64,000 bases of DNA from Antitrichia curtipendula (taxonomy: Eukaryota; Streptophyta; Bryopsida; Hypnales; Leucodontaceae): positions 36,828,001 through 36,892,000 of the forward strand of contig OX579635.1 of NCBI GenBank assembly GCA_951230915.1. Direction: 5' to 3'. Positions 19,054 through 44,902 of this stretch are shown piece by piece. Position 1 is the first letter of the stretch. Each line of letters starts with the position of its first letter. The translations under genes were made by a program, and so were the position numbers. The notes beneath the pieces were generated by a model. The model searched no databases. It was not told the DNA's origin and saw nothing but the letters and a program-made list of their open reading frames with translations.

Positions 19054-21234
19054 AACCACATGGACAATGGTTATCCCTAGTGGATTTTTTTCCATGCAAA
19101 CAATACACCATGTAGTAAATGGAGGATGTTCCCTCTAGATTTAGACCATTGTGACTGTGCCACAACATTGAAGTCTAACCCTGTGAGGCCCAAAAAATAA
19201 CATTGGTCCTCTCCATACTGGAAAGATATTGTATTTTGCTAAATGCCTACAAAGAACTTATTAGTTAATTCAAGGATTAGAGGTGGTTGGAGAGCCATAT
19301 ATGACAATTTTGTTTACATAGTAGGGGGGCCTCTATTAAGGATGCAATAGGAATCCATGCCTCATTGGTAAATAGTTATGATGGTTTTGGATCCAAGATG
19401 GCTCGGTAAAGGTTTGACCTTTTCAAATAGGGTTTCAACATGTGGGGGGGAAACTACAATGTTGTAGTTTAAATGAAGTGACATTTTGTAAAAACGGTCA
19501 AAATGTATGGCTTGAATTAGAAAGACATTTGAAACTATACAGATGCAAATTATTTTTCCTATGAGTACTTTTCCCTTAGTCCCATAATACTAGTCCCTTT
19601 TGTTTCTTTCAAAGGGGCCTCAAGGATGGAAATAAAGTTTTTTCATTTGATTCTTTTAGGAAAATTTCTTAAATCAAATTTTAGCCATAATAATGATTTT
19701 TTTTAAATTTGAGATTTTCTAATGGAATGAAGCTTATCAAGTCTAGTTTTTCTTCTAGTATGAAATTTTGAAAAATTCCTAAAATTCAACATTTTATTGC
19801 AAAAAATAATTTTAATTTAAAAATATACCACATGTATACATTATAGTGTAGATCATCTACAATTATGTTTTGAAGCCTAAAATTGCTTCAAAATACTCGT
19901 ACATAGAGCATTAGAACAAGCCAAAAAATTTCATCTACATTGGACTTTTGTACAATCCAATGGGTGGAATATATATTAAATTAACTTTTTCAAGTACATC
20001 TTCCTCAATTTCAGAGTGAAAATCTCCATCCAATGCAAGTTCAATGTGCCTACACTTCAATAAGTAGGCTTTTAGCCCTTCCTACAAGAACTGATTTTTT
20101 TGCCTTTCAAAACTAATGGTGCGTTAGTAAGTATTCTGGATGAGTTGAGCTAGAATATAGCTTGAAAAAATTTAACCAAAAGAACTTTCATATTCATCAT
20201 AAAAAATAATAAAGTGGAAGGTAGTATTAGATGAAGAAATACTTAAACCACTAATTACTTTGACAGGAAATTGGGAATTGGGAACTCAGATGGTGAGATT
20301 GTTCCAGTAAGCATTACATCATGTTCTTTGTTTTGGGTATTTTATTTGGAAACTTCCATACTTGAGTTAAGGAATGACTTTATATGTTTTTTCCACCATC
20401 ATTGCCACAAAATTAAAGTCCTCATAACTTCATCTCAATATTTGAAATGGAATGATTCAAATGTTCTTGTTAAGTATCAATCTAAACAATCAAATAGAAT
20501 TAGTCAATCTTTTTTAGAATGCATTCATAGCTCTTGGATTTGACATTGAAATATTGGTAAAACTTATAACTTTTGTAATATTTATTGGAATAACTTGAAA
20601 CAAAACTTTACATGTAGATTATTTTGATTAGCATCCATAATAAATGTTTCATTCAAAAATTTCAAATCAGAAAGTCAATAGATTTTGTTCAAGTTTTCAA
20701 AATCCTTAAATGGGCTCCCTAATCATGTAGGGGTTAAAAATTTAAAATTGAATCCTAAACGTATATTGTGAGTGTATTACTTGCAATATAGTTTGATTTT
20801 ATATATGTGAGACATGCAAGAGGCAATTAGAGGTTAGTATTTTCTAAAGATTAATATTTTATAATAATATAATAATATGTGCAGGATGGTATTTCAAATT
20901 TCCTCATTCAAATATTCCTACATAGGAAGCTTAATCCACAAACCAGTTTGTACTATATTTTGACAACTTCTAGCTCTTTGCTCTTATTAGAATTTTGCCA
21001 TCAAAATGTTCTTAGGTATATTTAAGCTTGATTAATACAGTGAAGTTTATCAAATCTAGCTTGTTCACCACTTTGAAAATTTGAATAATTCCTAAAATTA
21101 ACTATTTTATTGCAATAACCTCATCATATGTATTTTCCAATTTTCCAATGACACAAACATTTGATTCATACAAAATGTGTGCATTGTACCGTACATTTGT
21201 GGTGAAAACTTCCAAATTTTTAAATCCTACTATT
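19054..21234. other. AT-rich non-coding sequence left of the giant element
   Basis: I see no gene. A short open frame at 20271-20543 has no recognisable domain. The last bases, TATT at 21231-21234, form the left copy of the putative target duplication. Confidence 0.5.
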
Positions 21235-21300
21235 AACACCGAATTAGACATTCTTGCACTTGGGGGGTGCGACATTGCACTTGGCTAGTACGGCATCTAA
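21235..21300 (+). repeat. Left terminal inverted repeat and subterminal motifs
   Basis: The perfect 28-bp repeat ends in TTGCACTTG (21254-21262). A second TTGCACTTGG follows in direct orientation at about 21275-21284, then TAGTACGG. These repeated nonamers are candidate transposase binding sites. Confidence 0.8.
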
Positions 21301-21542
21301 AATGGACAATCTCAAATGTTGAGGGGGGGAGGGATTAATGAAAAAAACATTTGCTCTTAGTAGGAGAAATTGCTTGGCGAAAAGTTATCAAACACTCCAT
21401 TTTTTATAATTACTTCATAAAAATCTTTCACACTTTTCACTCCACACTACTTTTAAGACATATTACTCTGCACTTCACACTAATGTACTTCTACATACCT
21501 ACAACTACAAGGTCAAAGATTACTGCATAATACCATACTTCA

Positions 21543-24500
21543 CTAGTACATATTCAAATCATTCTGCAGACGTTCGTCATCTAGGTTCTCCATCTGCATT
21601 GCCATGTATTCGAGAAGATGTACTTTAGCCTCTGCTGGAATGATCACTGTCTCCTCTGTATGCACGCCATACATTGTAATCTTGGAACCTATTACATGAC
21701 CACTTCTCCCTCGACGAGGGACATCCGTCCATGAATATATAGCGGCTTCCTTCTCGGTCCAACCCAACATCTCACCAGACGGTTCCCACGTTGACTCCAT
21801 ATAGTTCGTGTACCTCACTCGGTTACTACCTGCTTCATCATGTGCTCCAGGTCTCATAGTAGGCCAATACCATAGAACCTTCATCTTTGAGGCCCACGTC
21901 CCCTGACCGAATTCGAGCACCTTCCCTAAAAAAAAAGGTACTCCTCCTCTTACTTCCGCTTGTTCTACGGTAAGGGCTACGTACTGCCCTACAACAACGT
22001 CATTCTCTGGATTGAATGGAGGAAACGGATCTTCCTCTGCATCTTGTCGTACCTCTGGGACAACTGCATTCTTTCTGCCTCGAATCCTTCCCCCAGTCAC
22101 TCTTCGTGATGTTGCTTGTACAGGTCTATCTCTGCGAGGTCCGAAATACCCCCTCCTCTCTGGATTTGGCATTGTCGCCATAATCCTGTCAACGACTGTA
22201 CTCTCCGTCGTATTTTCATCCTCATCAGCAACTGCACTTGGAATTGTACCTCCTTCCACGTCAGGAACAATTCCATCATTCCTGTTCTGGTTCAAAACAT
22301 TGCTGGGCCAAAACGGTAAATCACGGACGCCTTCTCTATTTCGTTGTGGAAATTCCTCCTAATACTCTTTGAACTGTTCTATTTCGTCCACCACTTCCAT
22401 GTTCCTGATCGGGTTCAAGCCTCTATCTATCATCTTCTTCTTGTATGCAATGAACTCGTCCAATGCTTTCAATTCCCTTTGATCAGCTGCAAACACCTCC
22501 GCGAGGTCCGGTTTCTGTGCTACGCTAGGCAATGAGTTCAGACACAAATGCCCTCTCGCTGGGCCCCACTCATCTGTGCAAAAATGCTTGTGTTGCACAC
22601 GGACCAACCCATTCTCCACGTAAAACCTCATATGGTGTGGAAATGTGATACCTGTCAGTGATTCCACCCCTCGTAGTAAATGCGGTGTGATAAATGCCTT
22701 CCAGTCGCGAACGTGCTCAAGCTTGCGAGCACTCACAAAGGCCTCCGTGTACGATGTTCCCTTTTCCACCAGCTGCAAGATCTCTGTCGAAGTGTCTATG
22801 TCTCTCTTCTTCAGTACGTTGGAAATTACACTGAACCTTTGATCGATGTCTTCATGTGTGTGGCCCACTATCAAAAAGCAAAGATGCACTTCCTTGAAGA
22901 AATCAAGCCCCACTAGTGCAGCACACATGCCAAACATGTAAGCGTTCTTGTTCTCCCTCGTGGTGTTATCCACTTGAATCCTCAACGTCGGTGGCAAAGA
23001 CCCCTTCCTTCGCTTCACGTCGCATATGACGTTCATCACCGACGTTACGACTTGATTGCTATCATGCTTGTGGTGAGCATCTATCCATACGTCCGCATAC
23101 AGACCGATATCATGTACAAGTACATCACACAAATGAGTCTTCACAAATCGAGATTTGATGTTCTTCACAGTTTGCCTCATCTTCAGTACCATGGTTGTAT
23201 TCTGATCCATACCGTCAACAATCAAACACATAAAAAAGTTTGGAGTGATCATCGCGGACCTCTTGAACAACCAATAATCTCGCCTCTCTTCCATTTGAAA
23301 TTGAATGTGCAGCACGTACAACTCTTTTATCTTCACCTTTGCGACTGCATTTGTTGTGGATTCCATCCCACATTTATACTCCCAACAATGATAACACTTT
23401 GAAAACCTCGAGAAAGGTGGAATTTGCACATGCGGAAATTCCTTCCGCCAAAGCCGACGAAACGAAGACAGGGACAACTTCGACCCGTCCACTATTTTCT
23501 TCACTTCTTCGTTCATATACATAAAAACATCCAACTTGCTAGTATTCATTGGCAACAGAATCAACGGAAGAATCGCACTGTCCATTTTCCTGCGAATCGA
23601 TCGATGCGGCTGTTGACAACCGGCTTCACTGAAAAAAATGTTGAGGCTTTCCCTAGCTGCTGACATTTTTGCACTTTCCCTCTGCTGACACCTGTTTCCA
23701 TGAACGGCTGCCACTCTATCATATACAGCATGTGCTGTCTTCAATTACTTCAAACACCTCTGAGAATAACCCAACGCTGCGGCGTAGCATGCATTGCATA
23801 CGACCCTGCCATCCAATTTTGTCACATACTTGTCTCTTGTCGGACCCTCCGTGCGAGTGTAAAAGGCATTCAACATTTGCATTATCCAAGTAGCACGTGC
23901 TTCGTACTTCTGTCCCCAAGCCATATATCGTTGGTCCAATACATATTTTGCATCTACATCACGTAGGCAATTGCGTTTACATGCTCCCTTTTCCTTCGCA
24001 CACAGAACACTGTCCAGAGTAACTTTTTGACTAGCAGACTCTCCCCTCTCCCGAGGACTTCTCACCCTTGCCCTTCGATTTGCCATTGAATACCTCCTCC
24101 TCGGTGTAAGCTCAGGTAGTCCTTCCACCCTTCTGAAATCCGCATTGCTACTTTCAGAGCCTTGCGTCATAGGAGAACTTCTTTCTTGTGTGCTTCTTCC
24201 ACTTTGACTTGGTGGCGTGCATTCAGAAGTGCTAGGGTTCTCTTCTACGTCATGAAAATCAAATTGTGGTGCTGAAATAGGAGGAAAAGAGAAATTCTGC
24301 TCCTCCCTCGCATTTGTTGCCGTTGTTCTCACCTCGTAGGGACGTGTGGAACGAAGTGAAGCACGACGCCATCGTATAATTTTATCCACACAATCTCCCA
24401 TAGTCTTCCCTACCAACTCACCAACCCATTATGTTTCATGTAGAGCATGTGTGACACGAACCGCAATCTCAGAAGGACGTAATTTCTCTTGGTGAAGTTC

Positions 24501-24746
24501 ATCACCGCATGTAAAATTTGTATCGACTATGCCCGCCCCCACAACTTGACCTTCGTCTCCATGAAGTTGAACCATACTATTGGTAGTTTGGAATTGTCCA
24601 TCCACAGGTGCACGATCTTCTTCTTCGAATAGTCTTCCTCGTACCACACGCGCTAATCTTTCCCCTACGCTCCTTCGCTCTGTAGCAACCAATGTTGTCG
24701 CTACCGCATTGAATACCCCAGGACTTCCAAATGCTTGTGCTGCCAT
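21543..24746 (-). pseudogene. DUF7869-type DDE transposase-like gene, three in-frame stops
   Basis: One frame runs from ATG at 24746 to the TAA at 21543 (1,067 residue positions) with no frameshift, but it is cut by TAA at 24429-24431, TAA at 23745-23747 and TAG at 22359-22361. The order is: variable acidic N-terminus; Cys-rich segment (CAKEKGACKRNC, then VCNACY); CYHCWEYKC; then a catalytic-type core with VDGMDQ, QVDNTTRENKN and VGHTHEDIDQRFS, typical of DUF7869 proteins and consistent with an RNase-H-fold acid triad. The C-terminal 250 residues contain VVVGQYVAL and FFLGKVLEFG, like a small beta-barrel chromatin-type domain. The stops may derive from CAA/CAG. It is probably the (now dead or silenced) mobility protein of the giant element; introns masking the stops cannot be excluded. 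Confidence 0.75.
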
Positions 24747-24921
24747 TTTTCAGCTTCACGAGTGATATAAAATAGTCATGTATTTGGTGCAGAGCTTTTG
24801 TAATTCAATGTCTTCGTAAATCACTACCCTCTCTGTATTTTTATTCACACAGTACACAATTAAAAAGTGATCCTACATAATTATAAAAGAACAATGAACA
24901 CCCCCTGACAATGACTAATGC

Positions 24922-25160
24922 TTAACCCTTTATGTACTAAGAATTCATGATTTTCAGTTGCAGATTTTGATTAATTATATTATAGAAAATATAATAGAAA
25001 TAGAAAATTTTATTATATCATTAGCTTAAATAAAGAACATTGTATGCATTGGTTCAAATACACAATTATTTAAGTTTAAAGAAATCTCCATATAAACTCT
25101 TCAACATTGCTTAAAAAAACGTGAGACCTAATTTGGGCTTCTTAGACATTAAAGGGTTAA
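24922..25160. mobile_element. MITE family C (239 bp, TTAA ends) inside the giant element
   Basis: TTAACCCTTTATGTACTAAGAA at the left is mirrored by TTCTTAGACATTAAAGGGTTAA at the right, with one single-base gap. TTAA lies at both outer edges, as in families A and B. It is inserted 176 bp upstream of the DUF7869 start codon and may therefore disturb that promoter. Confidence 0.75.
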
Positions 25161-26149
25161 GCCCTCATCAAAAGTGCTACAAAAACAAATCCAATATTTT
25201 TGTTCATTTTTTTCCTTCGTTTGCTTCAGCAAAGTTTTGCAAATACACTTGTGCATCATATTGAAGCAACCATTGCTTGCTCACACAACTTGCACATCAT
25301 GAATTGTTATCAACCTAACTATTTTAAATGTCCATTTCTTTCAATTGCATAACACAAACACTCTACAGATAGAGGGCTACATTACTTTTTTTCTCTATCA
25401 ATTATTAATGATGTATTATAAATGCACACTTTCTATACTAATACACTTGTATTTTTAACTACAAAGTTTGTAGTTAAAAATCTAATGGGCATTTTCTGAA
25501 CAAGAATTAATGATGCCACTTTTTCTATACCTACTTCATTCCACACTTCTTTGTAATGCTTTCTAAGAACAACAAAAATTGAAATTATGAGCGTTCCACG
25601 AACACACTAACATTCAAATACAGAAAAGGTAAAAAAACCCATCCAAACACGATCTCCAATTTCCCTGGAAATTTTGTTTAAGCGTAAACTTAATAACTTC
25701 AGGCAATCCACTAAACTTAAGTGCTTGAGAAATCAATATGTCCTCTGCTAGCTCCACAGTGAAATGGACTTCTAAGTGTTTTTTAACAATTACAATGGCT
25801 TGTTGACAGACAAATTGAAATAACATGAACTTGTTTTCTTTATGTCCACCCATTCCCTATTGCATTGTTACTTTACAAACGACAAATACAACGAAGTTCT
25901 GAAAATTGATTTGAACAAACTACACTCGAATTGTAGTTTTAGTTCAAACAAAATTTTCTTTCGTACCTTACATGATTACATTCTATAACTTACAAACAAA
26001 TGATCGACATTTTGTGCATTGCAAAATTTGTTGGACATTACCTTCCGAACTATAAGTCCAAATTATGAACAATCAATAAATGAGAACACATCAATAACTC
26101 GTTCAATTGCGTTTCTAAATTAATTTCTACCTTCAAAGCCCAATAATTT
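25161..26149. other. AT-rich interior of the giant element
   Basis: No gene is supported. Antisense open frames are short and have no recognisable family. Confidence 0.45.
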
Positions 26150-26950
26150 TCATAAATTTTGACTCCATGGTTAAAAAATTATTGCATGATATGTGATTTT
26201 CAGTCCTTGGCTGGGCAGCATGGGCAACATAAAAAAATTCTTCAAAAATCACTTTTTAAGAAAATCAAAATTTGAAATTGGTTCTTTAGATTTAAATGTA
26301 CACGGGAAGTTTTGAATCATTCCATTTAGATCTATGAGTCAAAAGTTATGAAGATTCGTAGTTGAAGGGTAGTTATCGAATCTTAACTTTGAAATAAACT
26401 TTGAAGTCCTTTATTTAAATCAATTTTCAATATTTTGAAAAAACAAACAAACATTGGGTGTACATTGTTTATTACAACATTACAACCATTGGGATTGGCA
26501 TTTTCCAATTCCATAAATAAATTCTTTTCAATTTAGTGTTTTGAATCATTCTTTACCTCTTTCTACTTACTATTTTTTTCCTATATGTTGTACAATTCCA
26601 AATGATCTGAAATTTTTCAAGCATGTAGCCAACTTGCCTTAAAGAAAAAATCCAAATAGTAACCACCGTTTTGGACATTCTTTCATACAAATGTGACCTT
26701 GTGAAGGGCAGCTGCCCATTTTTTTTCTGGGACAAAAAAAGGATTTTTGTCAATTCGAACGCTATTATCTTGCAATCCACATGGTGGAAAATTCTAAATT
26801 TTTTTCCACATCTTCTTAAACAAGTTTACTACAAGATCCTATGGTTGAATGTGCCCAAAATTCTTTTTTTCTAAAATTTGGCACTAGTATTAGAAATGGC
26901 AGTTCTGGATCGTTTTGGGTGAAAACATACTCAAAAACATTTAGGGTTCA
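26150..26950 (+). mobile_element. Diverged MITE family A copy (A8)
   Basis: The landmarks follow the order of the copy at 13297: AATCATTCCATTTAGATCTATG, AAAAGTTATG, then TACTACAAGATCCTATGGTTG (26828-26848) and AGAAATGGCAGTT with a decayed right end TTTAGGGTT. The left edge is approximate. Confidence 0.55.
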
Positions 26951-27896
26951 GAATGAAAAATTAAATCACATTGATTTTTAAAGACGGTTACTTCATTATT
27001 CATGCAATTACTTTTTGATGTAATACTTTCAGAATAGGCACTTGTTCAATACAGAAACATACCTTTTCAATTTAGACCTATAAATAATGTTGAAATTATA
27101 CAAAATTTAATTTAAGTCTATCTCATACAAATTAATTTAAGTCTATCTCATACAAATGTTAAAGAACTAAGTGAAGAAACTCATAAAAACAATGTAGATA
27201 AAAAGCCACTTCTTTGTATGAAAACATTTCTAAAACTAATGTAACTCAAGTTCACTATATGCTTCAAAATTTTTAAATAATTTAGATTTGCACAACATAC
27301 AAGCAAAAAATAGTGAGCACAAAGAAGTAGAGAATCTTTCAAAACACTAAATTGTTTAGAGCTCCATTATGAACAATGGAAGAACACCAATACTAACGGT
27401 TCAAATGTAGTTAAAATATCTACATCATATGATTCTATTTTTAAGCCTTCATATTAAAATTTTAATTTTTAATATGGACTCAAAGTCCATTGTAGAGTAT
27501 GGAAACCATAATTGCGCACTAACTAAAACTCCTCATTACTTTCAACTCCTAAATCTACTTATGTATTTATCACTAACTTCCCATGTACAAATGAATTTCT
27601 ATAAACAATTTCAAATTTTTTAGGTACTACTTGACCAATATAAACTTTAAATCTGACAATAACTTTTTGAATTTGAAGTCAAAAATCATGAAAATTCAAA
27701 ATACAATAAATTTTGATGCAAATTTAATGGGCTTGCAGATGAAATCTAAATTTTTATGACTTCGCAAAGCCCGATCAAACAACAGTGCCGATGCAATCGC
27801 GTGCTCCTCTCTGACCAACCCTAAATGGACCGTCTCTCTAACCGTAGAACGAAGTTCAAATTTTCTCAACCCCCAATGCCTCTAATCATTCGATTT
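26951..27896. other. AT-rich non-coding sequence
   Basis: Contains a short direct duplication, AATTTAAGTCTATCTCATAC, at about 27112-27152. Composition becomes more GC-rich from about 27770. No gene recognised. Confidence 0.45.
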
Positions 27897-28189
27897 AAGG
27901 TAGGGGGCTGTAAAACCGATCTATCTCTAAAAGCGATCTGGTAGATTTTGTCTCTAACATGTACCAGAAGTGTACATTCCAGGAAAGGATCGCTTTTAGA
28001 AAGAACTTTATTTTTAACTTTAAAAATTCAAAACTAATTCCATAAAGGTCCAAAAAATATGAAACGACTTGGATTAGATGTCGATTCCATTTTTCTTACC
28101 ACGTAAATTTACTGAAAATTGTTCTAAAGAATTTAGATTCCCCCCAAATGTAAATCAGCTGGTAAAGGGTCGCTAAAACAGCCCTCTAC
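27897..28189. mobile_element. MITE of the AAGGTRG group (about 293 bp)
   Basis: AAGGTAGGGGGCTGTAAAAC at the left pairs imperfectly with GCTAAAACAGCCCTCTAC at the right. An internal GCGAT..ATCGC pair lies around GTACCAGAAGTGTAC. Parts of the interior resemble the element at 15297-15616. Confidence 0.65.
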
Positions 28190-28880
28190 AATACATGATA
28201 AAACATGTACACCAACTCCACCTATCATCAGGAGAAAATTAGAGGGAACCAAATACTTCGGACGGAACCACTTGAAGTTCGGAGGGAACCAGATGGTTTG
28301 ATTAGTCTTTCGTCTCTATACCTAGTTCGTACGAACGATTTGCATGTCACTATCGCTACAGCAACCCTGCCGATGAACTCGTTTAGGTCTCTTTACTAAC
28401 CCTAAATGCACCGCCTCAATAGGTTCACAACTGTCTACGAGCAAGTGCCGGTGGTTTCGGACAACCGGGACAGGAGGGTTTACGAGTTGTGAAGATAGAA
28501 TTTGCGCGGGTTTCTCACTAGAAGACCTTCACTGCTGCCTGGATGCAGGTGCGCGATATCGCAGATGCCCAAGGACGTCAGAGCAGCAACGACGTGGTCA
28601 TCCACTCCTACGTCACTCCGGTGACAACGTCGGACCAACAAGCTTGGCTTACGTCCAAAACATCATCAAAAACTGCAGATGAGCGTCCGCAGAGTTTTTG
28701 AGATCAAGCTGCTCGATACTGCCTGTCAGTGCAGGTGCACGGTCATGTTGGAGGAGGTGAGGAAATTTCCCATCGGAGGAGGAGCGAGCGGACGACTACT
28801 TGCGGGTTCATCGGCAGCGTTGTTCAGTGCGGGTAATTTCAAAGGAAATTTAATGTCCTGTTCTTCTTCTGCTTTTGCAA

Positions 28881-28942
28881 TGAACAGTATTTGCAATCAG
28901 ACCCTCCACGCGTGCGGAGGGTCTGATCGCAAATACTGTTCA
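28881..28942. repeat. 62-bp near-perfect palindrome
   Basis: It starts TGAACAGTATTTGC and ends GCAAATACTGTTCA, with a GC-rich centre (CCTCCACGCGTGCGGAGG). There is a single mismatch per arm (A opposite G), apart from the centre. The copy 111 bp downstream is perfect. Confidence 0.85.
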
Positions 28943-28991
28943 CATTTTTCATTTACAAAGAAATCATTTTCACATTCTTCTGCTTTTGCAA

Positions 28992-29053
28992 TGAACAGTA
29001 TTTGCGATCAGACCCTCCGCGCGCGCGGAGGGTCTGATCGCAAATACTGTTCA
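28992..29053. repeat. 62-bp perfect palindrome
   Basis: All 31 bases of each arm pair. The centre is CCTCCGCGCGCGCGGAGG. It lies in a direct repeat of about 111 bp with the previous palindrome, the flank TTCTTCTGCTTTTGCAA preceding both. Confidence 0.9.
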
Positions 29054-30016
29054 CTTTTTTCATTTTCAAAGAAATTGTTTTTCAAAAAAGGAGTCCGCAA
29101 TTGACGCGCGACAGGCCACTTGTTCGTTTACCATTTTCTCAGAACGTCTCCTGCATTATTGACGAGGTGGGGCGGAATGTTACCTCTTTCGACGTCTCTT
29201 CCAAGCCTTGAAGAAGCGGTGTAGCTGAAGAAGCTCCTTCCCGCCGCACCTGCGCGCAGACTGCTCCCCGAAGGTCCTCTCCGCCGCACCTCTTGCTTGC
29301 TCGTTAGGTTTGCTCCCCATCCGTGAAGGTCCTCTCCGCCGCACGTCCGGTGAATTGTGCTGGTCGTTCGTTCGATTTGCTCCCCGTCGTGACTCCTTGC
29401 TGCGTCGCTCTGCTGCGTACCCCTGCTGTACTCCCTGCTGCGTACCCCCCAATTGTACTCCCTGCTGCGTCGCTCCTGCCACCAAATTGTATCTCATACA
29501 GTTGGCAGCATTGTCGAGTGCATTATCTGCAATCCTAGCAATCCAGGAGTGTCTTTACGGAAACAAAAAAAAACAAAACGTGACGCACCTGCGTGAAGAC
29601 AGCACCCCGGTGACCGACTACTTGCTGCGCTCCCCGTCGTGCTCCCGCTGCGTGAGGACAGCACCTCGGCGGTCGTGTTTCAGCTGTGCTCCCTGACGTG
29701 CTCCCGCTGCGCTTCCTGATGTGCTCCCGCTGCGTGCCTGCGTGAAGACAGGACTTCGGTGCTAGTTCTTTAGCTCCTCTCTTCCGCTCTTCCGCTCCTG
29801 CGAGTGGTGGAGCCGCTCCAAAACTTCAGCAGCAGCACAGTAAGGTCTGCATCATCAGCACATTTCGTTTAAGGATACGTCAGAAGCTCTAGATTGTGTC
29901 CCCATGGAATCTAGATTTTTTTCAGTGAATAGTTCATGAATAAATCAATGACGACGGTGTTGAGGACTGCTCACGACTATTTTCTTTTCTGCTTGTTCGG
30001 TGGGTTATGTTGTCAG

Positions 30017-30197
30017 GGTGCCGACGATAACTTCAACAAGCAAAATCAGCTCTTCCTTGAATTTTGAAGCAGCCTGGAAGAGCACAGTGATACCCATTGA
30101 GGTGCGCGTGCAGCCTGGCTATGACCACTTGTGTTTCTTAATTTCCACTTTTTCGGAGGACCACATCCACGAAATTGCCAAGGCGCTGGGAGTGTAG
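30017..30197 (+). pseudogene. Captured last exon of S-formylglutathione hydrolase (esterase D)
   Basis: A consensus acceptor (GGGTTATGTTGTCAG, ending at 30016) precedes coding sequence whose C-terminus reads PIEVRVQPGYDHLCFLIS, then TFSEDHIHEIAKALGV and TAG. S-formylglutathione hydrolase ends in a closely similar (R)LQxGYDHSYYFIATFIxDHI..HA motif, including the catalytic His of GYDH. The 5' part of the exon (GADDNFNKQNQLF) is one base out of frame with the rest (shift near 30056), and no upstream exons are visible. It sits within the giant element, so I infer capture of a genomic host fragment. The parent enzyme hydrolyses S-formylglutathione in formaldehyde detoxification; this fragment cannot. 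Confidence 0.75.
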
Positions 30198-32428
30198 ACA
30201 GTGGTACTGAACACCTGCCACTCACCCATTTGTGTAGCTTTTTTCTAAAGGGCATGTGCAATTTGAAGAAAAACATAGGTGTTTACAAAGTGTACTTATG
30301 GAGGCTTTGCCTTCATTGTTTGAGAGCTTGTAAGAATTGTGTTTGGACAATGCCTTGCTGGATTATCACACACTTTGATTGTATGGAAAATGTGGAAGTG
30401 TATGATAAGGTTGGTGGCTCGAAAATCACTCATTTAGGTCTTGTTGCTTTTTTGGTGCATCCGATGTTGGGGATAGGATTCAGTTTCAGTCGTGGAGTTT
30501 TCTTCGCAGTTCCAATGCTGGGGTTTCGGATTCAGTTTCAGCGCACTGAGTTCCCTTCGCTTCTGATAAATTTGCTGTACACATTGAGGTCTCGAAGGTG
30601 AACAGCTTGTACTGCATAGAGGTTCCACGGTGAGTGATATTCGAATTGTACTCCTGCACCCGGGAGTCCAGGGGAATTTGTGGAAAAGATTAAGCTTTCC
30701 AAGTTAAACATCCTGTAGTGCATAGAACAGTATCATTTGTTTGAAATTAGAACTTCACTCTTGTGGCTGTAAATCTTGTTGATTTCGCTGTAAAGATTGA
30801 TCTATCCGTTGGCTACAACCTCATTGACAATAGGGTTAGGACTACCGAGTCTCATTGGCTGAGAGAGAATTGCAGAGAATGACGGATGAGCGCACTGTGC
30901 ACGTGTTTAGTGAAGTGCTACTACTGCAATGCCTAATTGCCTTTTTTGAATGCTGCCAGGTTGGCGAGGTTTGCAGGTTGGCTACTGTATCTACTACTCT
31001 TATACTCCTGGTTGCAATAGTCTTCGAAAGTGACAAAGCAGCTACTTGAAGTCACCCTTACAATTGTGGACTAATATAACGAGTATTTAGTTTCGCAAAT
31101 ACTCTTAAACCGTCTTGAGAGTAGAATTGGAGTTTGTAAGATGAAGTACTACTGCATCATCTTGTTTTCATAAAGTGAGCACTAACACAATTTTCATATA
31201 AATTGAACTATTTTATGAACTGAAAGACTATAAAGTCATGGGAATTGATTCCGAAATTTTGGGTACAGTTCTTTTGTGGTGACATTCATTGTGTACAAGC
31301 TTCACCGTGATCCAAAAAAGGGCTTCCATAAAACCGTTTTGACCACATGTAGACGTCCCAGTACATCATGTTTAAACTATTTTATTGTGGTTTAATGAAA
31401 TAGTTATGTCTCCAAGTGTAATTTCATAAAAAGACAAAGAGCAAAAAGATATTGTCCACTTGAAACTAAAACCAACGCTTGCACTTTCATGGCACAAAAA
31501 TTCAAAATAAAATAATTGGGAGTGTCTATGATTCATTAGATTTTGCAGAATATAATTGAACTGGGTTGCAAATTTAAATCATTACAGTCAGTTAAGACTC
31601 CAAAGTACATACTACGAACTCAAAGTATATGTAGTATTCTGGACGTGTATAGTGTAGTTCATGTTGTGTGTTGTGCACTTGTTCTGTTAGATCTTGAAAT
31701 TGCAAATGTAGTTTCTGACAATTTCTTTGCTATTGAATAAATTGAAACCAATTAATTTCACTTTTAGACTGTTAAAGATTAATTATTAAATTTGAAATTA
31801 GTGGGTAGAAAATGAAGTGTATCACAAAATCATCTCTAATGATACTATGTAATTGCAGGTTCTCTATAAATATTTAGAATTTATCATATTGTCGACAACA
31901 AAGGAGTGGACATCATACTACTGTCAAGTTGGAAACACGTGTCAGAAGAACTCATGTGTATTTGAAGGCACTGCAGCTAAGATAATGTGATCAAAAACCG
32001 TCCTGTTAAGAGTTGATTGGCCTTGTTTATGGATATTTTATTCTTGAAAGTATTATGTTTGATTTTTAACTTGATTGAAAATCGATGCCACATTTAGCAG
32101 AAGTGGTTTCATATTTTGCAAAACTATTTTCAATTAGTAACAAATTTTTAAAGAATTTTGCCGTAGGCACCTATTTATGAGTTAAAGACTCGCAGAACCC
32201 ACATATGTGTAGTCTGAGAATAAATATGGCTTGACCAAGAACAAAAATAGTTGCATGACGCAGGTAATACGTAAGTTTCTTGAATGCAATTCTTTATAAA
32301 CTTATGCAAACTCTAAAGTTTCTAGCATTTGTAAAAATGTATTTGGATGACATTTTTTTCATCTAAAAAAAATTAGTGGACGCACTATCATGTTTTAAAT
32401 AGATCCAGCATGGCTCTTATTCTCGTCA
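30198..32428. other. Non-coding interior of the giant element
   Basis: 30198 onward may be 3' flank carried along with the captured exon. Small open frames at 30131-30601 and 30855-31049 have no recognisable family. Confidence 0.4.
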
Positions 32429-33335
32429 TTAATCCCTAAAGGCCCGTTAGTCCCCTCGAGGTGCAATTTGGGTCCGGATAGGTTCCTTTGACCTCAATTT
32501 GTAGAGAATTTTTGGGGGATTTGTAGAGGTTGTGCGGCTCTGGAAGAACTTTGTGCATAAATATTTTTTATTTCAATTGGGGACCAATAAAAAAAGTTAT
32601 GCCAAATAGAATTTGACGGGTAGCAACAAAAAATCTAAGATAGTTTCCTAAATTTTTTAAATATTTTTTTAAAAATCTATGTCTTGTTGTCTACATTTGA
32701 AGCTTTGATTCATTATATTTGGACTAATAATGAAAAAGTTATGGACAATTGTTGTTTTTTGGGCTAGCGGAGCATTGTTTTGAACAGATAAATTTTCGAA
32801 TTCTTTTTGTAATGCAATTTTTACAATTTTCAGAATTTCAATTTCAGAGAAGGTGGAATTTGCTTGCTAGAACAATCTTACCGTTAGGATTTTGTTATTT
32901 CATTTTGTCTTTGAGCTATTAATGATTTAGTTAATAGCGTCGATCTTGAATGTTCTTCTATTTAACAAATTTTTAATGATTAAAAATTTAGTGTTTTTTT
33001 CTTAAATTTTATTTTCTATTTTCTCAATTGAAGCATTCAACTGAAACCCTAAATCGAAATGAACAAAAAAATTAAGTTAAATAGGTTCAAAGCCCAACAA
33101 TCTAGTCACGCAATGTGCAAAAAATCGTTTTTTATTCACTTTGAATGCAAATATCTTGCAATCTATTTGGTAAAAAACTCTGAAATTTCTTGCACACACT
33201 CTCATACTACTCTAGTATAAGATTCTATGGTTGGATATGCCAAAAAAAAAAAATTTAGTTCTCAGATCTTTGCAATAGAAGTGGCAATTTCGAGTGTGTT
33301 GTGATGGAGAAAAGGCATCGGGGCTTTAGGGTTAA
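32429..33335 (+). mobile_element. MITE family A copy (907 bp) inside the giant element
   Basis: The left end TTAATCCCTAAAGGCCC and right end GGGGCTTTAGGGTTAA keep the family termini with TTAA at both edges. It is collinear with the copy at 13297-14221 over its whole length. Confidence 0.75.
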
Positions 33336-35609
33336 AAGAAATATGAATAAATCTCATTATGCTCGAACATAGTGAACAATCTCGTGAGTGCTCTATGTTG
33401 TTTTGAAACCAGTTATAGGGGCGATTTGAATAAGAGGGTTGGATTTCTAGCATCTTCTTGTATAGGTGTTTCGGTTTGTTGAAAATAATACAAATTTTTA
33501 AAACCAAATTGACGTTATGAAGTTATTATAAGATCAGGAAGGTGGTTGATGAACGTCAAACTAAATACTAAATTTAGTGACATAAAGTAATTTCCTAAGT
33601 TTCTTAGGAAACTTAGAAACAAAAGTTCTAATAGTTAAATTTTTAGTGTTATTAAACCGAATCATAGAAAGGAGTGTGTACATGCTACGTTTCAGTTTTT
33701 AACAATTCTGTTGTAAGTGTTAATAGAACTTTAATGTCATTATGTGTTTAAAAATTTGCAGAAAAAGGTCTTGAAAGTCTGATACCTTTTAGAATTGATT
33801 ATTAATCAATGAACTTGATTGTTCTTGCAATGAACTCTCCTACTCTATTTTTGTTCACCACTACTGAACTTTGTCTCTTTTTAGTGAAGGCCTATATTTG
33901 AAAATGAATGAACTAAAAGATTTTGAAAGTTCTTATGGACACAATAGTGCAAGTGAAGTGCGTGGTGTTTACATATAGGTGTGTTGAACAAACGCATACG
34001 GACATTGTTGGTTGCCTAGGTGGATTGTGAATTTGTAATTAATACTACTTTGAAGCATTTGAAGTATCTCAGAGTTTGTAGTGATTTTAGGTATGTTACG
34101 TAATTGAAATTCAATAATGTGGATTGAGACATTTTCAAAAGAATTGAATAACATTATATGGTAAATATTATCATAAGAGATTGTGGAAATTTTATTGTGA
34201 AGTGACTCTTGCAGCAATAGTCATCAAGCATACTTGTAATTCTTTTAATTTCAATGACATTTGTAGCATGTACTTTGGAAAACATGAATGACCGAGTGGA
34301 ATGTTTGTTTTCCATTTCACTGTTGCAGCGTTGCTAGAAGTTGGATACGTGAGGCAAAATATTGACGTGGAACGCAAGCATCACCTTCCTATAATCGATT
34401 TCTTTTCCATTGAAAGGTGCAAATATTTATTCATTTCAATTAGTTTTTAAAAAAAGAATTACACAATTGAACTGAAAAAAAGTACAAGAAATTTGTTGAT
34501 GATGTTCTAGAACTTTGACACTTAACATTTGAAGAGAGAAGGCTTTAACTGTCATTGCAAGGAAAATGGGTCATACTTACTAGTGACATTGCAAGTGATT
34601 CTCTTGTCATCTGGTATAGCTTTTTAAGCAGAAGTCGGATAAGTAAAATATTTTTATTGGAGATGTTTAAGTACATGGTAGTGAAGTATTTTATTTTGTA
34701 GTCATTAAATAGAAGCTATTCATATTGAAATTTTATTCCTGCTTGTTGTGATGGAATGGAGTCCATAAAGGACACAATCGTTATGGGTAATTTAACAGTT
34801 GCAGCATTTCATACCAATGCATTCCGGATGTAGAAAAGGCTTTAGAATCACAATGTTTTGGTTTAATATAAGAATGTGTAGTATGTTGTTCAATGTGATG
34901 TTCATCATATGCACTTGGTGTAGCTGCCACTAACGAAGTGCAAATGCAATGCTATTGTCTATTAATTTGTTTATGTACTTATATTCAACTGAAACACGGT
35001 GTTGCATTAGTGGCCATATAGTCCTTCAAATTGAACATGTACAAGTTTTAATATAAGTTATGTAATAGGAGTCTAGTTTTTGAAACATTAGTAGGTGATT
35101 ATTTTGAAGTAAACTTTGCCTTTAGCTTGTTCCTTCTCTGAATTTAATTTACTGTACATGGTAAACAAAAAATAGAATTCTAAGAGAATAGTGAGAAAAA
35201 TTATGTTTTGTTTCATTGAGAAGAGATATATATTTTTTTCAAATACATATGAGGTTGAGAATAGAAGGTGTACTGGATTTGCTCTAGTACTAGTTGTACA
35301 TATTTTTGTATACATGTATATAACATTAGTTGTTTAAAATAGAGTTGCATGTACTTGTTTAAATTGAGTTGGTGTGTAAATTAAATATTTTGTGAAAATA
35401 ATTATCACCCGTCTTTCAAAAACATTTAGTTTAGTCTTTTTCCTCCAGTTTTTGTAGGACAACTTCGAACTTCACTGAAACGGCATTGTGTCTTCTTTGT
35501 ATTTAGTATGTTGAAAGAGACAATCTTGAACTTTTGTATAGAACTTTGAGAACGTTGGAAAACATCCTCAAATATTGAACTATTTTTGTTTTATTTTTTG
35601 TAGGTTATC
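33336..35609. other. AT-rich region upstream of the DGQH gene, probable 5' intron end
   Basis: No gene is seen. The last bases before the start codon read TTTTGTTTTATTTTTTGTAG then GTTATCATGG, an excellent plant 3' splice site 6 bp before the ATG. A 5'-untranslated exon upstream is therefore likely; its position is unknown. Confidence 0.45.
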
Positions 35610-38600
35610 ATGGCACCAAAGATTCACGCAAAGTGGTTAGAGCATGGATGGTGGATCGTAGCAGAGGGTGTGGAGAAATCTTTTTTGTGGGTCACGGATT
35701 TTCCAATTGAAGAAGGGCGTTACTGGGCTGCATTGAGTACTTCTTTCGGAGTTGTTGAGGGCCTTACAGGCACTGCAGATGGAGGGCTGACTATATTAGT
35801 GAGTAATACTGAAATGGCATTGGAAAAATACAAACTGAAGAAGTCGCTCATGATGGCTACAATTCCACCTGAGCTACTTTTAGTATTGTCACCAATCCAT
35901 GACTTGAAGACTTTGGCAAAGTCTTGGAAGAATGTGCCTGAAGAACTACGGGTACGCAGAGAAGCATCAGTTCAAAAGTTCAAGGATATGACCCCTCAGC
36001 AGTTGCATACCGCACGCACTCGATATAGAGAGATTCGGAGTCATGAAGAACTATCGAGAGAGAATCCTGACGTTGCCAATGAGTGTCCTATTTCTAGAGA
36101 TCCAGAAGACACGAATGAAGTTTATCGAAATGCAGCTGTTCCAGTGAATGAGAGTTGGGTTTCTTCGAACGAACGAAACCGGAAGCGAGCTGCTGTTGAG
36201 GAGGGAATAGCAAGCCTTGCAGAGGAGGAGGAAGTTCATGCAAGGCAAAGAACTCAACGTCAGCGTTTGTAGTCTGCACCATCCAATGCTGTAGTTGAGA
36301 CCACAGGAGATAATGAAGTTGAGAGGCATGAGGAGGTAGCTGTACAAGGGAACGCCCCAATTATGCCAGCGTCAGTGGAGGTGGAAGTTGGAGGGGAATC
36401 GGTGGAACCTGTGGAGGCTACATCTGGACCCTCCGTACTAGATCCGGCAGTAGTGTTTCCAGAGCTAGAAAATGAAGGTGAAGTTGGAACTCCTATAACA
36501 GTCACAGAGGTTGGATCAGGTTCAAGACATCCAATAGTGGGCTCAGGTAAACAAATATATAGGTCACGTGTTGTAATGGCCAATATGGAGGCTCAAGGAT
36601 CAGGCGTTGCAAGAAGACGGGGTGCTGGTAGAGGACGTGGGAGAACTCGAGTGCAATGTCATCTGGAACAGGAAGTGGCCTTAGAAGGACAAGAAGACCA
36701 TCACACTCTTGACAGGGGTCCAACAGAGGAGAGAAGTGTTCCACGGCGAAGTGCAGCTCAAACACGTCGTCAAATAGCAGCTAGACAAGACCGTCCTCCA
36801 CAAGGAAATGATGGGCACGAAGAAGTTTCCGAAGATGATTCATCAGAGGGGGAGCCTGAGCACATACCTACCCGGCGATTGTTACAAAATGTTCCCAAAG
36901 CACCTGTGGTATTTCCAACGGAGAGTGAATACAAAGCAGGATACATATGGGGGCACAATCAGTTCTTCGATGCAGACATCAATAGTATTCGAGATGTGAA
37001 AAATGCTGAGACGAATCATAGAGTGCTAATGGAGTGGCGAGTGAATGAAATGTATGAGCGCCTCAGGGGATCAGAAGCTCACGAAGTTAGTGCAATAACA
37101 CTTCGTCCAGTTGCGTATTTCTATAGAAATCCGGATGAACAGGGCGAGACAGAGATGGTGGAGGTTCCTTTCAGTCAAGAGGGTGCGGCAAGAGAATTTG
37201 AAGCTGCTTTTTTGAAGCATTGTCAAGCTGATCCATCTATATCGAATGCTGCGGTTAGGAAGCGATGGCTGGAGGACAATATTGTGTGGGAGCTAGTAGA
37301 TGGACAACACATTGTTGGTGCATGTAAACGAGCACAACGGGAAAGAAGAGAGGGTAACATGTCCGACACGGAGTATTATGCGCAATTTCAAAGACGAAGA
37401 GCGAAGTTCGTAGTGTACAACAACCCACAGTTTTACATTGAAGCATCTGTCAGAATAAACGCGAGGGAGTTTGATCGCAAGTTCTTCACAACGCATTACG
37501 AGAATTTAATCAAGCTGCGTGACATTTGGAAGGCATGTGGAAGCCCAAGTGTAACAACTCGATCTGATGATGTTCTCAGAGCAAAGGCATTGACAATGGC
37601 AGCGAATGCGTTACATTGGAGCCAAGATCTGCCAAAGCTCATGTCGCTAGGAAGTTTGTCCAAAAAAATGATTGACTTCACACGCCATGCTTGGAACGAA
37701 GATGAAGAATCGTACAAGGCTATTTTGCAGGTGTGCAAAGATTATGAGGAAGGCAAATTATTTTTCAGCAAGAAGGCGGAGGTGAGGTGGAAGAAGATGG
37801 CAAGGGAGCGAAATCTTGATGTCACAATGGATGGAAGCTCGAAGAGGAAGAGGATGGAGAAAACTTGGTTCAGGCCTTTGAGCAGGATTTCAATGGAGAA
37901 TTATTTACGTGTGGTTAAGCAAATGGCTGCCAAAGATGTGGTGGGAGGGAAGCGACAATCACAGCGTTATTATTTCGATAGTGTTGCTTCTCCAAATCCA
38001 CCGAAAGGCACGATAGCATATGCGGTAGATCGATTACAACGGAAGGATGCTGTTAGAAATCAAGTCCGTTTCTTGATGGTGCAAGCAGGAGATGAGAAAC
38101 CAACATTCGTACATGAGTTCTTTGCCATAAATGCGAGCAAATACGGAGATTCGCGTGGGAGGCAATTCATTCTAATGGGAAAGACATTGGATTATGACGC
38201 AAAGACTTTGTGGTGCTCGCCTGCAGTGAAGACGATACAAATGTTGAACAGTTTTGAGAAACTCATTCCAGCATTTGTTCGGCAACACTTTGTGGATATC
38301 CGAGCGGGTCGCAAAGGATATGTGGGCTATGGTCGAGACGTGGAGGACGTATGCAATGCTCGATGGAATTGGCAAGTTTCCCTCTCTGGAGTTCAACACG
38401 GAAATGACGAAGTGTTACTGCACGTCAAGTGTCGTGAAGGGTTCTTCAAGGATGAGTACATTGAACTTGGGAAACTGTGTTTATGGATTTTCGATTGTAG
38501 ACGGGGAGGTTCGGGAGGGGAGGAAGTGGAATGGTCAGATAAAGACTACAGCAAGGTTATACAACATCTTCAGTGGATGTCTTTAATTTTACGGTGGAAT

Positions 38601-39974
38601 GCTGTGTTCCTTTTTCCTGCAGGCGTGTACTTTGATGAAGAAATGCAATCTAGGATGGCAGTGCCACAGGGTTGTCACGTATTAGAGGATTCTTGGATAT
38701 TTAAGCGACAAACTGTGTCTTCATATGTGCATGATCTCCGTCATGGTGAAGAACGAAAGCGTGGAGTTCAACCTGTAGGCGATGTTGTCATCATCATGCA
38801 ATATCCCGAAGAGAGTGGGCCCATGGAGAACCTTCCAAGCAGTGCAGAGGATTTGGATGTGGTATTTCAAGATTCTTGGAGTGCAGAAATCATGCCTCGA
38901 GCGGAGGATAAGTTGGAGAGGACCCCATCAGAGTTGAAGAAGATGGTGCAGATGTACCTGCCACAAAATTGGGGATTGGTGACATTGGGCATCACCATGG
39001 CAGTGCCGGGCATTCTGGAGACTGGATTCGTGGGCAATGACATTATAATTATGGAAGGAGCAACGGCTCGAACGCAATTTGTGTACAACACATTGCAGTT
39101 GGTGTATGGGGATAAAATGTCGATGGTGAATACAGTGAATACAGCAGCCGAACGCAAGATTTCGCAAGTGTTGAATACCACAAACGAATCACCTAATCAA
39201 AGTGCTTCCCAAGCGAATGTAAGACAGCCACGTGGTAGTTCAAGAAGGGTCCTGCGACCATTGAGGGAGTCATCAGAGGAACGAGCGAGATTTCAAGTGT
39301 CTGTACGGGACAAGCGAAAGGGCAAGCAGACTGCAATTGATTCGGAAGCCTCATCTGGTGATACAGAGTCCGAGAGAACGCACTCAGACGATTTACCTAG
39401 TCGTGGCCGAAGTCTAGGTTCTGCAGACACCAATGCCATGGGTGAAGTGCGCGGGAATGAAGCAGACTCGATGGAAGTGGAAGAAGATCCTGATTATGTT
39501 CCAACAAGAAATACTGGGAATGTGGAGAATGTAGGAGCGGAAGATGTTGGAGTTGACGTGAGAGAAATTGAAGGGACACCAGCAACAGTGGAACCCGTAT
39601 CAGCGTTATCTGCATTCAGCATGTTCGACTCCATGAATTTGGTATCCGGAGAAGACGGATTTTTCTATGATAGAGAACACGTACAATATACTCGGACCGG
39701 TGAAGAAGGACAGTACATGTTCCATCGCCAAGTTTCTATCTTAGAAGGCCCTACCTTATCGCCAACTTTATCGGAAGGAGTGACAACGCCTATTGCGAGT
39801 GCTATGGTGGATAGGGCGCTGCAGTACACAACTTCGGTCTTAGTGAGTGAAGTTGGTGGACCAAGTTTGGTTGAAGAAGCAGAGGCATGTGATGGAAGGG
39901 AAGGAGAAGAATTGACACAATCATGTGCGCAAGTATTGGAGACACCGGATGAAGTAGTACCAGAACAAGCGTAG
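35610..39974 (+). pseudogene. Giant-element companion gene with DGQH motif (ParB/DGQHR-like), one in-frame TAG
   Basis: The frame runs from ATG 35610 to TAG 39972-39974 (1,454 residue positions), cut only by TAG at 36270-36272. An internal ATG at 36363 would still give 1,203 codons. It has an N-terminal globular part (WLEHGWWIVAEG), a long charged linker with an Arg/Gly stretch (RRRGAGRGRGRTR), and a conserved-looking core (about residues 181-900 of the 1,203). There WELVDGQHIVGAC (D313, GQH 314-316) is followed by RRRAKFVVYNNPQFYIEASV, reminiscent of ParB/Srx-fold and DGQHR domains (DGQHR..A, then a strand and an Asn-containing helix). The tail is acidic and disordered. I do not recognise the full protein. 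Placement opposite the transposase-like gene suggests a role in transposition or in protecting the element's DNA; that is inference. Confidence 0.6.
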
Positions 39975-40450
39975 TGTAGTTCTTGCAATGGTAGTGTAGG
40001 GTGTGTACGAATGCAGGTACTGTGTGTGCTAGTTTATAAAGTGATTGTGAATATTGGAGTGAACGTTGTTTGTTTGGTGTGAACCTGTATTTTGGGAATG
40101 TGAAGGTAGTTGTGAAACCTTCAATGTCGAATTTGATTTTCTAAATAAATCTTTCATCACTTGTAGTGATTAATGGTGTATATGTGATGTTGCTATGAAA
40201 ATGATATAATAATAATGTAATTGTAGGATACATTATTGGGAGACTGGAACATGAAAGATAAAAAAAGTAATTGAGATGACATAAGCATGTGTTTGCAATT
40301 GATTTAACCCAAAAAAAAATTGAAGTGTACCTTTGTAGAAAATTTCTATACTAAATTGAAATATTGCATGATGTAACATGAAAAAGGTATTCTTGAAAAT
40401 ATGGGGGATACCCAATTTTTTGAAAATCACTTTTCAGTGAATAGTTTTGC
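39975..40450. other. 3' flank of the DGQH gene and right subterminal region
   Basis: AT-rich sequence containing a probable 3' untranslated region (AATAAA-like TAAATAAA near 40141). No other gene. Confidence 0.45.
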
Positions 40451-40498
40451 GTACGGTCATTGCACTTGGTCAAGTGCAAGAATGTCTAATTCGGTGTT
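40451..40498 (-). repeat. Right terminal inverted repeat and subterminal motifs
   Basis: 40471-40498 is the reverse complement of the left 28-bp repeat. Immediately inside lies TTGCACTTGGTCAAGTGCAA (40460-40479), so the nonamer is inverted here rather than direct, followed inward by GTACGG (40451-40456), matching TAGTACGG on the left. Confidence 0.8.
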
Positions 40499-41939
40499 TA
40501 TTATTTTATCTCAATTTTTTTACTTTTATTTCAAAGATTTATTGTAACTTCATTTTTTCACAAAAATACATAAGGCTTTGATGACTAATAGAAGGTACAG
40601 TAAAGGATTTCCTCTCTCTTAATCGCAGAATCATAGAAGGACCAAGCAACATTCTTTGGCAACATAGCAAATTGGGACAATTCATTACTAAAAAGACTTC
40701 ACCATATTTTTTGAATTTTTTTTGGATATAGGGAACTAGGGACAAGGAGAACCTTGCCACTCCACCAAAAAAGTTATAATTGGATACATGTGCCCAAGAT
40801 TAGTTATAAAGAAAAAATGTCATTTCTCTTTGACAAAAGGTAGCATGGGCACGGTTAGTTATAATAGAGCAAAATTTGTATTGCAATGCTTGAAGGAGCT
40901 TGAGCAGGGCCTTCGGCAATCTCTCATCCTAGGTTCAAACCGGGCTATTTCTTTGACATTTTTCTAAACTTATAAATTTATTATAGAGCACAAGGACGTG
41001 GTAGCATGAAGGCATTTGCTCTATGGCTTCTTTTGGTCTAACGGACCAATTACACCTAATTGCTACATTTAAACTTAAGAAATCCAAATGCCCAAAGAAT
41101 TCATTGACTCAATTACCAGTTTGTCATTTGACAAACTACCATCTAAAAAATGAAGCAATTGTTTCATTGACATTCATGGGAATGAAGGGGAGATGTCATT
41201 TTTATAATTAAATCCATTGTCCATCATGAATCCTCAAAAGGTATAAAATAACGTTTCCCCCCATATGTGCTATACTTGCACAGCAATATAGGACTATGAA
41301 ATTAGAGAATCACTCAGATCTCATATCTCTCTTACTTCTTACTGAAAAACAAAACGAACTCTTCTTGCGCAATGCAGAGGCACGTCTAGTTGAAACTATG
41401 GTCCTTGAGTCCCATACTGTCAAGGTTTCTAGTGTTAGATCTAAGGCACAAAAATATAGGAAAAATCGTTTTAAACACTTGGGTAGCTATAGTCGTGATA
41501 GCCAACATGCACAAAGGAAGACTAACACTTCATCTACTAACAACCATGGTAGGAAGAAAGATGGTTTTCTGGTGATCAAAGCGAGATTTGAGCTTGTGCC
41601 ATAGCTCATTTGGATTTTCAAGTTCCAAATATTGATGTTGCAAAGAAGGAACAAGATGGCGACGGAGCAAAAGCAATGCTTTATAAAAAGTAGTAGTGAA
41701 AATTAAGATATCTACAATAGAAAGTTGATCAAATGTAATACATTGCGATAGGTATTCTGCAAATATATGTGCCTTTGCAGTCTTTGCCTAAAGTAGGTAA
41801 TTCCTCGCATCAACTGCTAACTATAGGAAAAGAAGTGGTTAAAGTCTAGGTGTCTCAAATATTATTAGTAGCCATTGGGATTGCCATAGATGTGGCAACG
41901 AAAGATGTTGAAGTGCTCATGATGGACAAAAAAATGATT
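40499..41939. other. Right flank of the giant element, possible copia gag remnant
   Basis: TATT at 40499-40502 is the right copy of the putative target duplication. An open frame at 41296-41604 (LLLLTEKQNELFLRNAEARL, then a basic stretch) resembles the region before the zinc knuckle of copia gag proteins, but no CCHC motif remains. It lies about 0.8 kb from the copia composite. Confidence 0.35.
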
Positions 41940-42369: not shown

Positions 42370-42584
42370 TGTTGAGAATAGGAAACAAAAGAATACTATA
42401 CAAGGTTGTCAAACCAAAGTACACAAGAGAAAAGTAATATATTCACCAAAAAAGTATCAAATATATATATTAGGGAGAGAAGGTGAAATTCTTCTCTCCT
42501 ATTGGTCTAAAGGATTCTAATATAATCTCTAGGTAACTTTAAAACTACAGTGGAGAGCGTATTATTAAAAAATATTTCTTAACA
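42370..42584 (-). repeat. Copia LTR (minus orientation)
   Basis: 215 bp, TG...CA ends on the minus strand, next to the polypurine tract that lies at 42585-42597. Confidence 0.8.
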
Positions 42585-42879
42585 CTCCTCCTCGCTTGAC
42601 ATGACATTTATAAATAAAATTCTACGCAATGTCCTATATGATATTGTTCGTAATCTTGCAAGATATACAATTGTTGCCTCATTAAAATCTTATCCGAGAA
42701 AACCTTGATTATAATCAAGGATAAAACTACAAATTAAGGAAAAAGAATACAACATCTTTATTAATTCATTTTCATGATAAAACTCAGTGAGAAAAATCCA
42801 TGGAAGAATATCAAAGGTTTCCACAATAATAAAAGAGTCTATTTAATTTCTTATCACAAAGTATTAAGCCGTTGCATTC

Positions 42880-44480: not shown

Positions 44481-44902
44481 TAGCAATAAAGATTTTCAGC
44501 AATCATACAAATGAATGATTCATCTATTTCAATTGTTGCTCTATCTCAAATATCACATGTACTACAATACATCACAAATAATTCTGTATTCAACTTGGAC
44601 TTTTTTTGCTCATGAATAATAGTTCTTCCCTCATGAGTTGCAGTTATATTAGATGTGGATGGATAGTTTGATATAAGTGATCCCGTAAAATTGACAGTGG
44701 TTATTGTAGGTAGAGAAGGATTAATAGTATTAGTCATTGCCTTGCATGGTTGTTTATTTGATTCGCGAGCTTGTTTGTTAATTGGTTGAAAAGTTGAAGT
44801 TGTAATAGTCTCCGGTATTGAAACTCGAGAAGGAACATTTTGAGCTTCATTCAACAGAATCTTGGTGCTTCTTGGTTCATAGACTAGCATTTGATTGAGA
44901 TC

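Follow-up and report, generated by a model that had tools for sequence, protein, structure and literature searches.

A probable giant DNA transposon family of the moss Antitrichia curtipendula pairing a DUF7869 gene with a ParB-like gene

The stretch of DNA considered here (the window) comprises 64,000 nucleotides of the moss Antitrichia curtipendula (assembly GCA_951230915.1, contig OX579635.1, positions 36,828,001 to 36,892,000 of the forward strand), and within it lies a putative giant DNA transposon that carries two long genes. The element spans 19,264 bp and is bounded by a perfect 28-bp terminal inverted repeat (TIR), AACACCGAATTAGACATTCTTGCACTTG, located at 21235..21262 on the plus strand and, inverted, at 40471..40498 on the minus strand, exactly where an original prediction made from the letters of the window had placed it; the TATT flanks claimed on both sides are found as well and represent a 4-bp target-site duplication (21231..21234 and 40499..40502). 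The match between the two ends breaks off at base 29. The left end holds two direct copies of TTGCACTTG, at 21254 and 21275 (21254..21283, plus strand), which are candidate protein-binding half-sites, and the right TIR is overlapped by the palindrome TTGCACTTG-GT-CAAGTGCAA (40460..40479), which is parS-like in form and may likewise serve in binding. No further copy of the TIR is present in the window with up to eight mismatches allowed. The longest inverted repeats in five first-order shuffles of the window measure 16-17 bp. Since inverted repeats longer than the TIR exist elsewhere in the window, TIR length alone does not set this element apart, and the copies found genome-wide are decisive.

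Near the left end, on the minus strand, lies the DUF7869 gene, which encodes the probable transposase in one frame of 1,066 codons (21543..24743), and near the right end, on the plus strand, a second gene of the DGQH or ParB-like type in one frame of 1,454 codons (35610..39974). Two very long genes near the ends, as originally predicted, are thus present, but neither is intact in the window copy: the first contains three premature stops (TAG at 22359..22361, TAA at 23745..23747 and at 24429..24431) and the second contains one (TAG at 36270..36272), and the standard code yields neither protein at full length.

The DUF7869 domain (PF25273 in Pfam, E 5e-49) is encoded at 22572..23156 on the minus strand, where two conserved D codons (23214-23216, just outside the Pfam match, and 22968-22970) and a conserved E codon (22851-22853) specify candidate catalytic residues. 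Among 13 relatives of the protein, eight have a length of 1,053-1,066 amino acids, and at each of the stops the relatives extending that far align without gaps, which identifies the stops as nonsense codons and rules out introns. Scans of Pfam and NCBIfam place DUF7869 alone above cut-off. A search against the sequences of solved structures gave no significant match; the weak one to a BAH domain near the C-terminus (E 1.8) is not claimed. A literature search for 'DUF7869' found the name in none of the papers covered. Nine of the 43 scored genome matches are stop-free, one of them being partial. Judged by the anatomy of the element, the most likely role of the DUF7869 protein is that of a DDE/D transposase cutting with a 4-bp stagger.

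For the second protein, a structure model predicts a ParB N-terminal fold of the cytidine triphosphatase (CTPase) type in the N-terminal part (36960..37478, plus strand), the ParB-like fold being recovered over about 95 residues. The DGQH motif (37299-37310, plus strand) lies within this fold, at what we take to be the position of the bacterial GERR-type motif. The fold is common to the moss protein and to bacterial ParB, Noc and KorB as well as an archaeal-type ParB-N (PDB 7bnr, 7ng0, 8qa8, 5k5a); in contrast to bacterial ParB, to which it is 11-17 percent identical in the ParB rows, the moss protein is encoded in a nuclear transposon. Its relatives comprise P0001-P0005 and, via a profile search, P0019-P0022. 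Neither Pfam nor NCBIfam yielded a domain above cut-off for the window protein or for P0001-P0005, and a KDZ-associated CxC3 match on P0002 (E 0.12) lies far below cut-off. Methyltransferase motif IV, [DNS]PP[YFWH] (DPPY), of N4/N6 amino-methyltransferases occurs in none of ten second-gene sequences. Where DPPY might be expected, eight of the ten carry a conserved DCRR motif (38493..38504, plus strand) in their C-terminal half; the other two lack the DCRR region and may be fragments. Methyltransferase identity was judged by motif only, the C-terminal part of the structure model being too poor for judging the fold. The premature TAG of this gene falls in a poorly conserved stretch in which relatives show small gaps, and is read as nonsense because other copies in the same genome keep open frames (1,386 amino acids in copy c6 and 1,457 in another). 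The window's core is among the eight stop-free second-gene cores of 57 scored; the remaining 49 contain a stop.

A search of the host genome (400 Mb, 303 contigs) revealed 105 exact copies of the 28-bp TIR (51 forward, 54 reverse), as opposed to none for the control. Pairing was based on 100 of these sites, five not being listed, and yielded 28 inward-facing neighbour pairs less than 120 kb apart: 24 span 14,448-26,272 bp, a further three 35.0-35.6 kb and the widest 109,570 bp. This widest pair is false, because its member c4a has a right end of its own, which contains one mismatch and gives the copy a length of 19,287 bp. Below 25 kb, 23 pairs were observed against 0.18 under random placement, which bears out the proposal that other loci share the same ends at a spacing of 10-25 kb. 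Among the 100 sites listed no inward-facing pair is shorter than 14.4 kb, and the ends therefore do not recur there as short elements unrelated to the genes. When ten left ends of one of two subfamilies, A and B, namely A, were read 20 kb inward, five copies showed both ends, four showed no right end and in one the sole end seen belonged to another element. Seven copies with both ends span 18.2-19.4 kb; reads of 20 kb could not reveal longer copies, and the coordinate-only list of TIRs peaks at the same length. A right-end palindrome, TGCACTTG-G(C or T)-CAAGTGCA, is present in all 14 right ends read (five A, nine B), and its 9-mer is carried by the left end as a direct repeat. The pairs at about 35 kb (C2:26141602-26176633, C2:40225979-40261455 and C1:2790625-2826230), two of which have a 4-bp duplication, form a second size class that possibly consists of nested insertions or of a subfamily with extra DNA.

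Target-site duplications were counted from 40 bases taken at each end of 26 TIR pairs. The same 4 bp stand on both sides in 22 of the 26, compared with 12 of 650 mismatched pairings, and adding the window and c6 brings the count to 24 of 28. The duplications are T/A-rich, without a fixed sequence. They are also present in c4a, c10, c4b and b2, each of which departs from the exact TIR at one position; c2, which has both ends, was excluded from the count, its outer six TIR bases being different. Copy b2 (19,437 bp) is inserted in sequence that resembles the middle of other family copies. Joined via a single TACA, its flanks align with c4b over 180 of 180 columns, gap-free and at 91 percent identity, and with c3a, c4a, c2, c6, c3b and c10 at 80-86 percent identity, over 161-164 columns that include 1-3 gap letters. 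To judge by these alignments, the seven copies represent the site of b2 before the insertion.

Genes were scored for 57 of 263 second-gene and 43 of 1,435 DUF7869 first-look candidates, and unpaired genes are consequently no evidence for solo genes. For 22 of the 43 scored DUF7869 matches, a scored second-gene match lies at most 45 kb away in the divergent arrangement of the window, one other arrangement being counted, and an exact TIR is located within 3 kb downstream of 30 of the 57 scored second-gene matches, mutated ends remaining uncounted. Loci carrying both genes, proposed as a check on the original prediction, therefore exist. The TIR pairing, the 4-bp duplications, the co-linear gene pairs and the empty site lend strong support to the inference that repeats, flanks and genes belong to one mobile unit. 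By subfamily, 13 of the 22 pairs are A/A, six are B/B and three, the window included, combine a left gene of type A with a right gene of type B. The left 3.7 kb of the window copy is 91-94 percent identical to A copies and 79 percent to the B copy b2, and its right 4.9 kb is 92 percent identical to b2 and 70-71 percent to five two-ended A copies; by these identities it is evidently a recombinant of the two subfamilies. The TATT pair around it suggests that the recombinant moved as a unit, or that gene conversion followed insertion. The number of DUF7869 candidates relative to second-gene candidates (1,435 and 263) hints at DUF7869 transposon families without a ParB-like gene.

The ratio of nonsynonymous to synonymous substitution rates (dN/dS), obtained from simple Nei-Gojobori counts with stops skipped, amounts between subfamilies to 0.16 in the single DUF7869 comparison (dS 0.81) and to 0.13-0.24 in six comparisons of the second gene (dS 1.05-1.38), and within subfamilies to 0.23-0.44. 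Selection for function apparently preserved both genes in the spreading lineages, while single copies decayed. The label of cargo given in the original prediction fits them poorly, as both adjoin the ends in copy after copy at dN/dS well below 1; they look like the element's own machinery. An alternative genetic code was considered, the four premature stops being TAA or TAG and one frame continuing under table 6, and is ruled out by copies in the same genome that are stop-free under the standard code and by others that carry TGA, TAG and TAA alike.

Between the conserved end modules of about 3.7 kb and about 5 kb lies a middle region of some 10.9 kb (24744..35609) with no recognised gene among ten open reading frames (ORFs) scanned, which varies strongly between copies and holds a dispersed repeat. 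In six copy pairs compared, the sisters c6 and c2 align throughout the middle, c10 and c4a also in its right part, and four pairs are patchy; none of five copies with both ends has an ORF of at least 180 amino acids there. Within the middle region of the window copy, a 111-bp tandem duplication is built of inverted repeats (28864-29075). The interior of copy c1a contains ORFs for a RING-finger protein (PF13639, with a match below cut-off) and for a protein kinase (PF00069), at L018:3225-5519:- and L018:7882-9459:- (L017/L018). These were rejected as cargo, the RING gene being assigned to a separate, very abundant element: 59 of its 2,482 candidate copies genome-wide were scored, all 59 are at least 97 percent identical, and the gene looks like part of a large mobile element of its own that was amplified recently.

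In view of its ends and target duplications, the number of copies, the paired genes, their low dN/dS and the empty site, we regard it as probable that the window copy is a degenerate, chimeric member of a family of giant cut-and-paste DNA transposons with a DUF7869 transposase and a ParB-type accessory protein. The DUF7869 protein would recognise the 28-bp ends, excise the element and reinsert it at a cut staggered by 4 bp, from which the 4-bp duplications would result. The second protein, with its modelled CTPase-type domain, is a natural candidate for binding the 9-mers of the ends; most likely it would attach to the TTGCACTTG repeats, which form a palindrome at the right end, and would help to pair the ends or else counter silencing by the host. 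In a more elaborate and rather doubtful version, it would act as a clamp in the manner of ParB and parS, loading at TTGCACTTG-N2-CAAGTGCAA and spreading along the 19 kb under the control of a nucleotide switch (e.g. cytidine triphosphate), so as to pair the ends or shield the element from silencing, with a methyltransferase half devoid of its catalytic motif. The near-constant length with an exchangeable, noncoding 10-kb middle could then reflect a requirement for clamp-covered DNA.

Target duplications measure 8 bp in KDZ and hAT, 8-11 bp in MULE and 3 bp in CACTA and PIF/Harbinger elements, and Kolobok and piggyBac target TTAA; the 4-bp duplications of non-fixed sequence and the lack of any Pfam domain of these families at cut-off speak against all seven. 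A virus-like, self-synthesising element of the Maverick/Polinton type shares the length of 15-20 kb and the TIRs, but would leave duplications of 6 bp instead of 4; the two genes and the ten middle ORFs scanned contain no domain of a polymerase, integrase, capsid protein or protease, and the middles of the five two-ended copies lack ORFs of 180 amino acids or more. This is the most remote of the explanations. As to viral relatives, neither protein has a match in IMG/VR. That two ends of different elements bracket the genes by chance might be read from the affinity of the left half to A and of the right half to B, and from the three A/B gene pairs among 22. However, TATT is duplicated at both outer edges, 19,264 bp falls in the middle of the family's length distribution and two other A/B combinations have normal gene spacing, so that a recombinant that moved, or gene conversion, fits better and chance bracketing is very improbable. 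The second gene could also be a passenger, captured once and without a role in movement or silencing, as its lack of a Pfam or NCBIfam domain above cut-off and the stops in 49 of 57 scored cores would allow. Yet its place and orientation beside the right end are kept in 22 copies, it is present in both subfamilies, related proteins occur in other public data, and a comparable gene is described in Ectocarpus (PMC12477816). With dN/dS at 0.13-0.24 between subfamilies as well, we consider a passenger unlikely.

A different filing, which leaves the working of the element unchanged and which we consider somewhat probable, would make it a plant member of Sola1, with DUF7869 as the Sola1 transposase and the second gene as a diverged ParB-methyltransferase; the Sola superfamily, as reportedly defined by Bao et al. 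in 2009, has 4-bp target duplications and a DDD/E transposase unlike that of other superfamilies. The 4-bp duplications (22 of 26 pairs, the window and c6) agree with this, as does the perfect 28-bp TIR, although the latter is a generic feature. The giant Sola1-1_Ec32 of the brown alga Ectocarpus, as described, is 21.5 kb long and encodes, opposite the transposase strand, a second protein of 1,104 amino acids with a ParB-like domain and a domain described as a DNA methyltransferase producing N4-methylcytosine or N6-methyladenine (PMC12477816). Compared by description, the moss element is alike in its size of about 20 kb and in combining a transposase with an opposite-strand ParB-like gene (about 1,450 amino acids here), and differs in having DCRR in eight of ten C-terminal halves and DPPY in none of the ten sequences, two of which may be fragments. 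Table 1 of PMC9033089 lists Sola1 for the moss Physcomitrella, whereas curated bivalve Sola1 elements, again by description, average 5.4 kb as against about 19 kb here (PMC10294476). Since the likeness rests on description, not on a comparison of transposase sequences, the moss family is not filed as Sola1, nor, as the methyltransferase motif is absent, as a carrier of a ParB-methyltransferase.

VANDAL transposons belong to another transposase superfamily and are not known to encode a ParB domain. Like the moss element, these Arabidopsis elements are plant DNA transposons with an accessory gene beside the transposase (PMC10398659, PMC5735166), and their anti-silencing protein VANC is described as acting on rapidly diverging noncoding regions of its own VANDAL copies (PMC10398659). 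By analogy, we hypothesize that the second gene might play an anti-silencing role. KolobokP, as described, also combines a DDD/E transposase of a eukaryotic DNA transposon with a second protein, which is, unlike that of the moss element, a His-Me finger endonuclease (PMC9587614). A term search of the main text of a paper on giant transposons (PMC6431247) found neither ParB nor Sola named.

Elsewhere in the window, a Copia reverse-transcriptase fragment (PF07727; 43706-44416 on the minus strand) lies between long perfect inverted repeats whose arms measure 302, 198 and 181 bp (42416-45644). At 50299-50819, a series of 20-29-bp inverted repeats about a common centre forms a large imperfect hairpin, and a 109-bp tandem repeat of about five copies with 96 percent matches (52996-53553) lies near TPM_phosphatase stretches at 52506-52928 and 54621-55316 on the minus strand.

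By analogy, the moss element probably works like Sola1-1_Ec32, and the two-gene arrangement of about 19 kb, recently reported in a brown alga, is here detailed in another genome. Giant two-gene elements of this kind recombine between subfamilies. The family is well delimited and multi-copy. Its two subfamilies, the target duplications, the empty site and the stop-free frames that some copies retain for each gene make it a setting for testing what ParB-like proteins do in transposons. Should the second protein prove to be a ParB-type clamp lacking methyltransferase activity, the question would become one of anti-silencing or end-pairing through binding, and not of DNA methylation.

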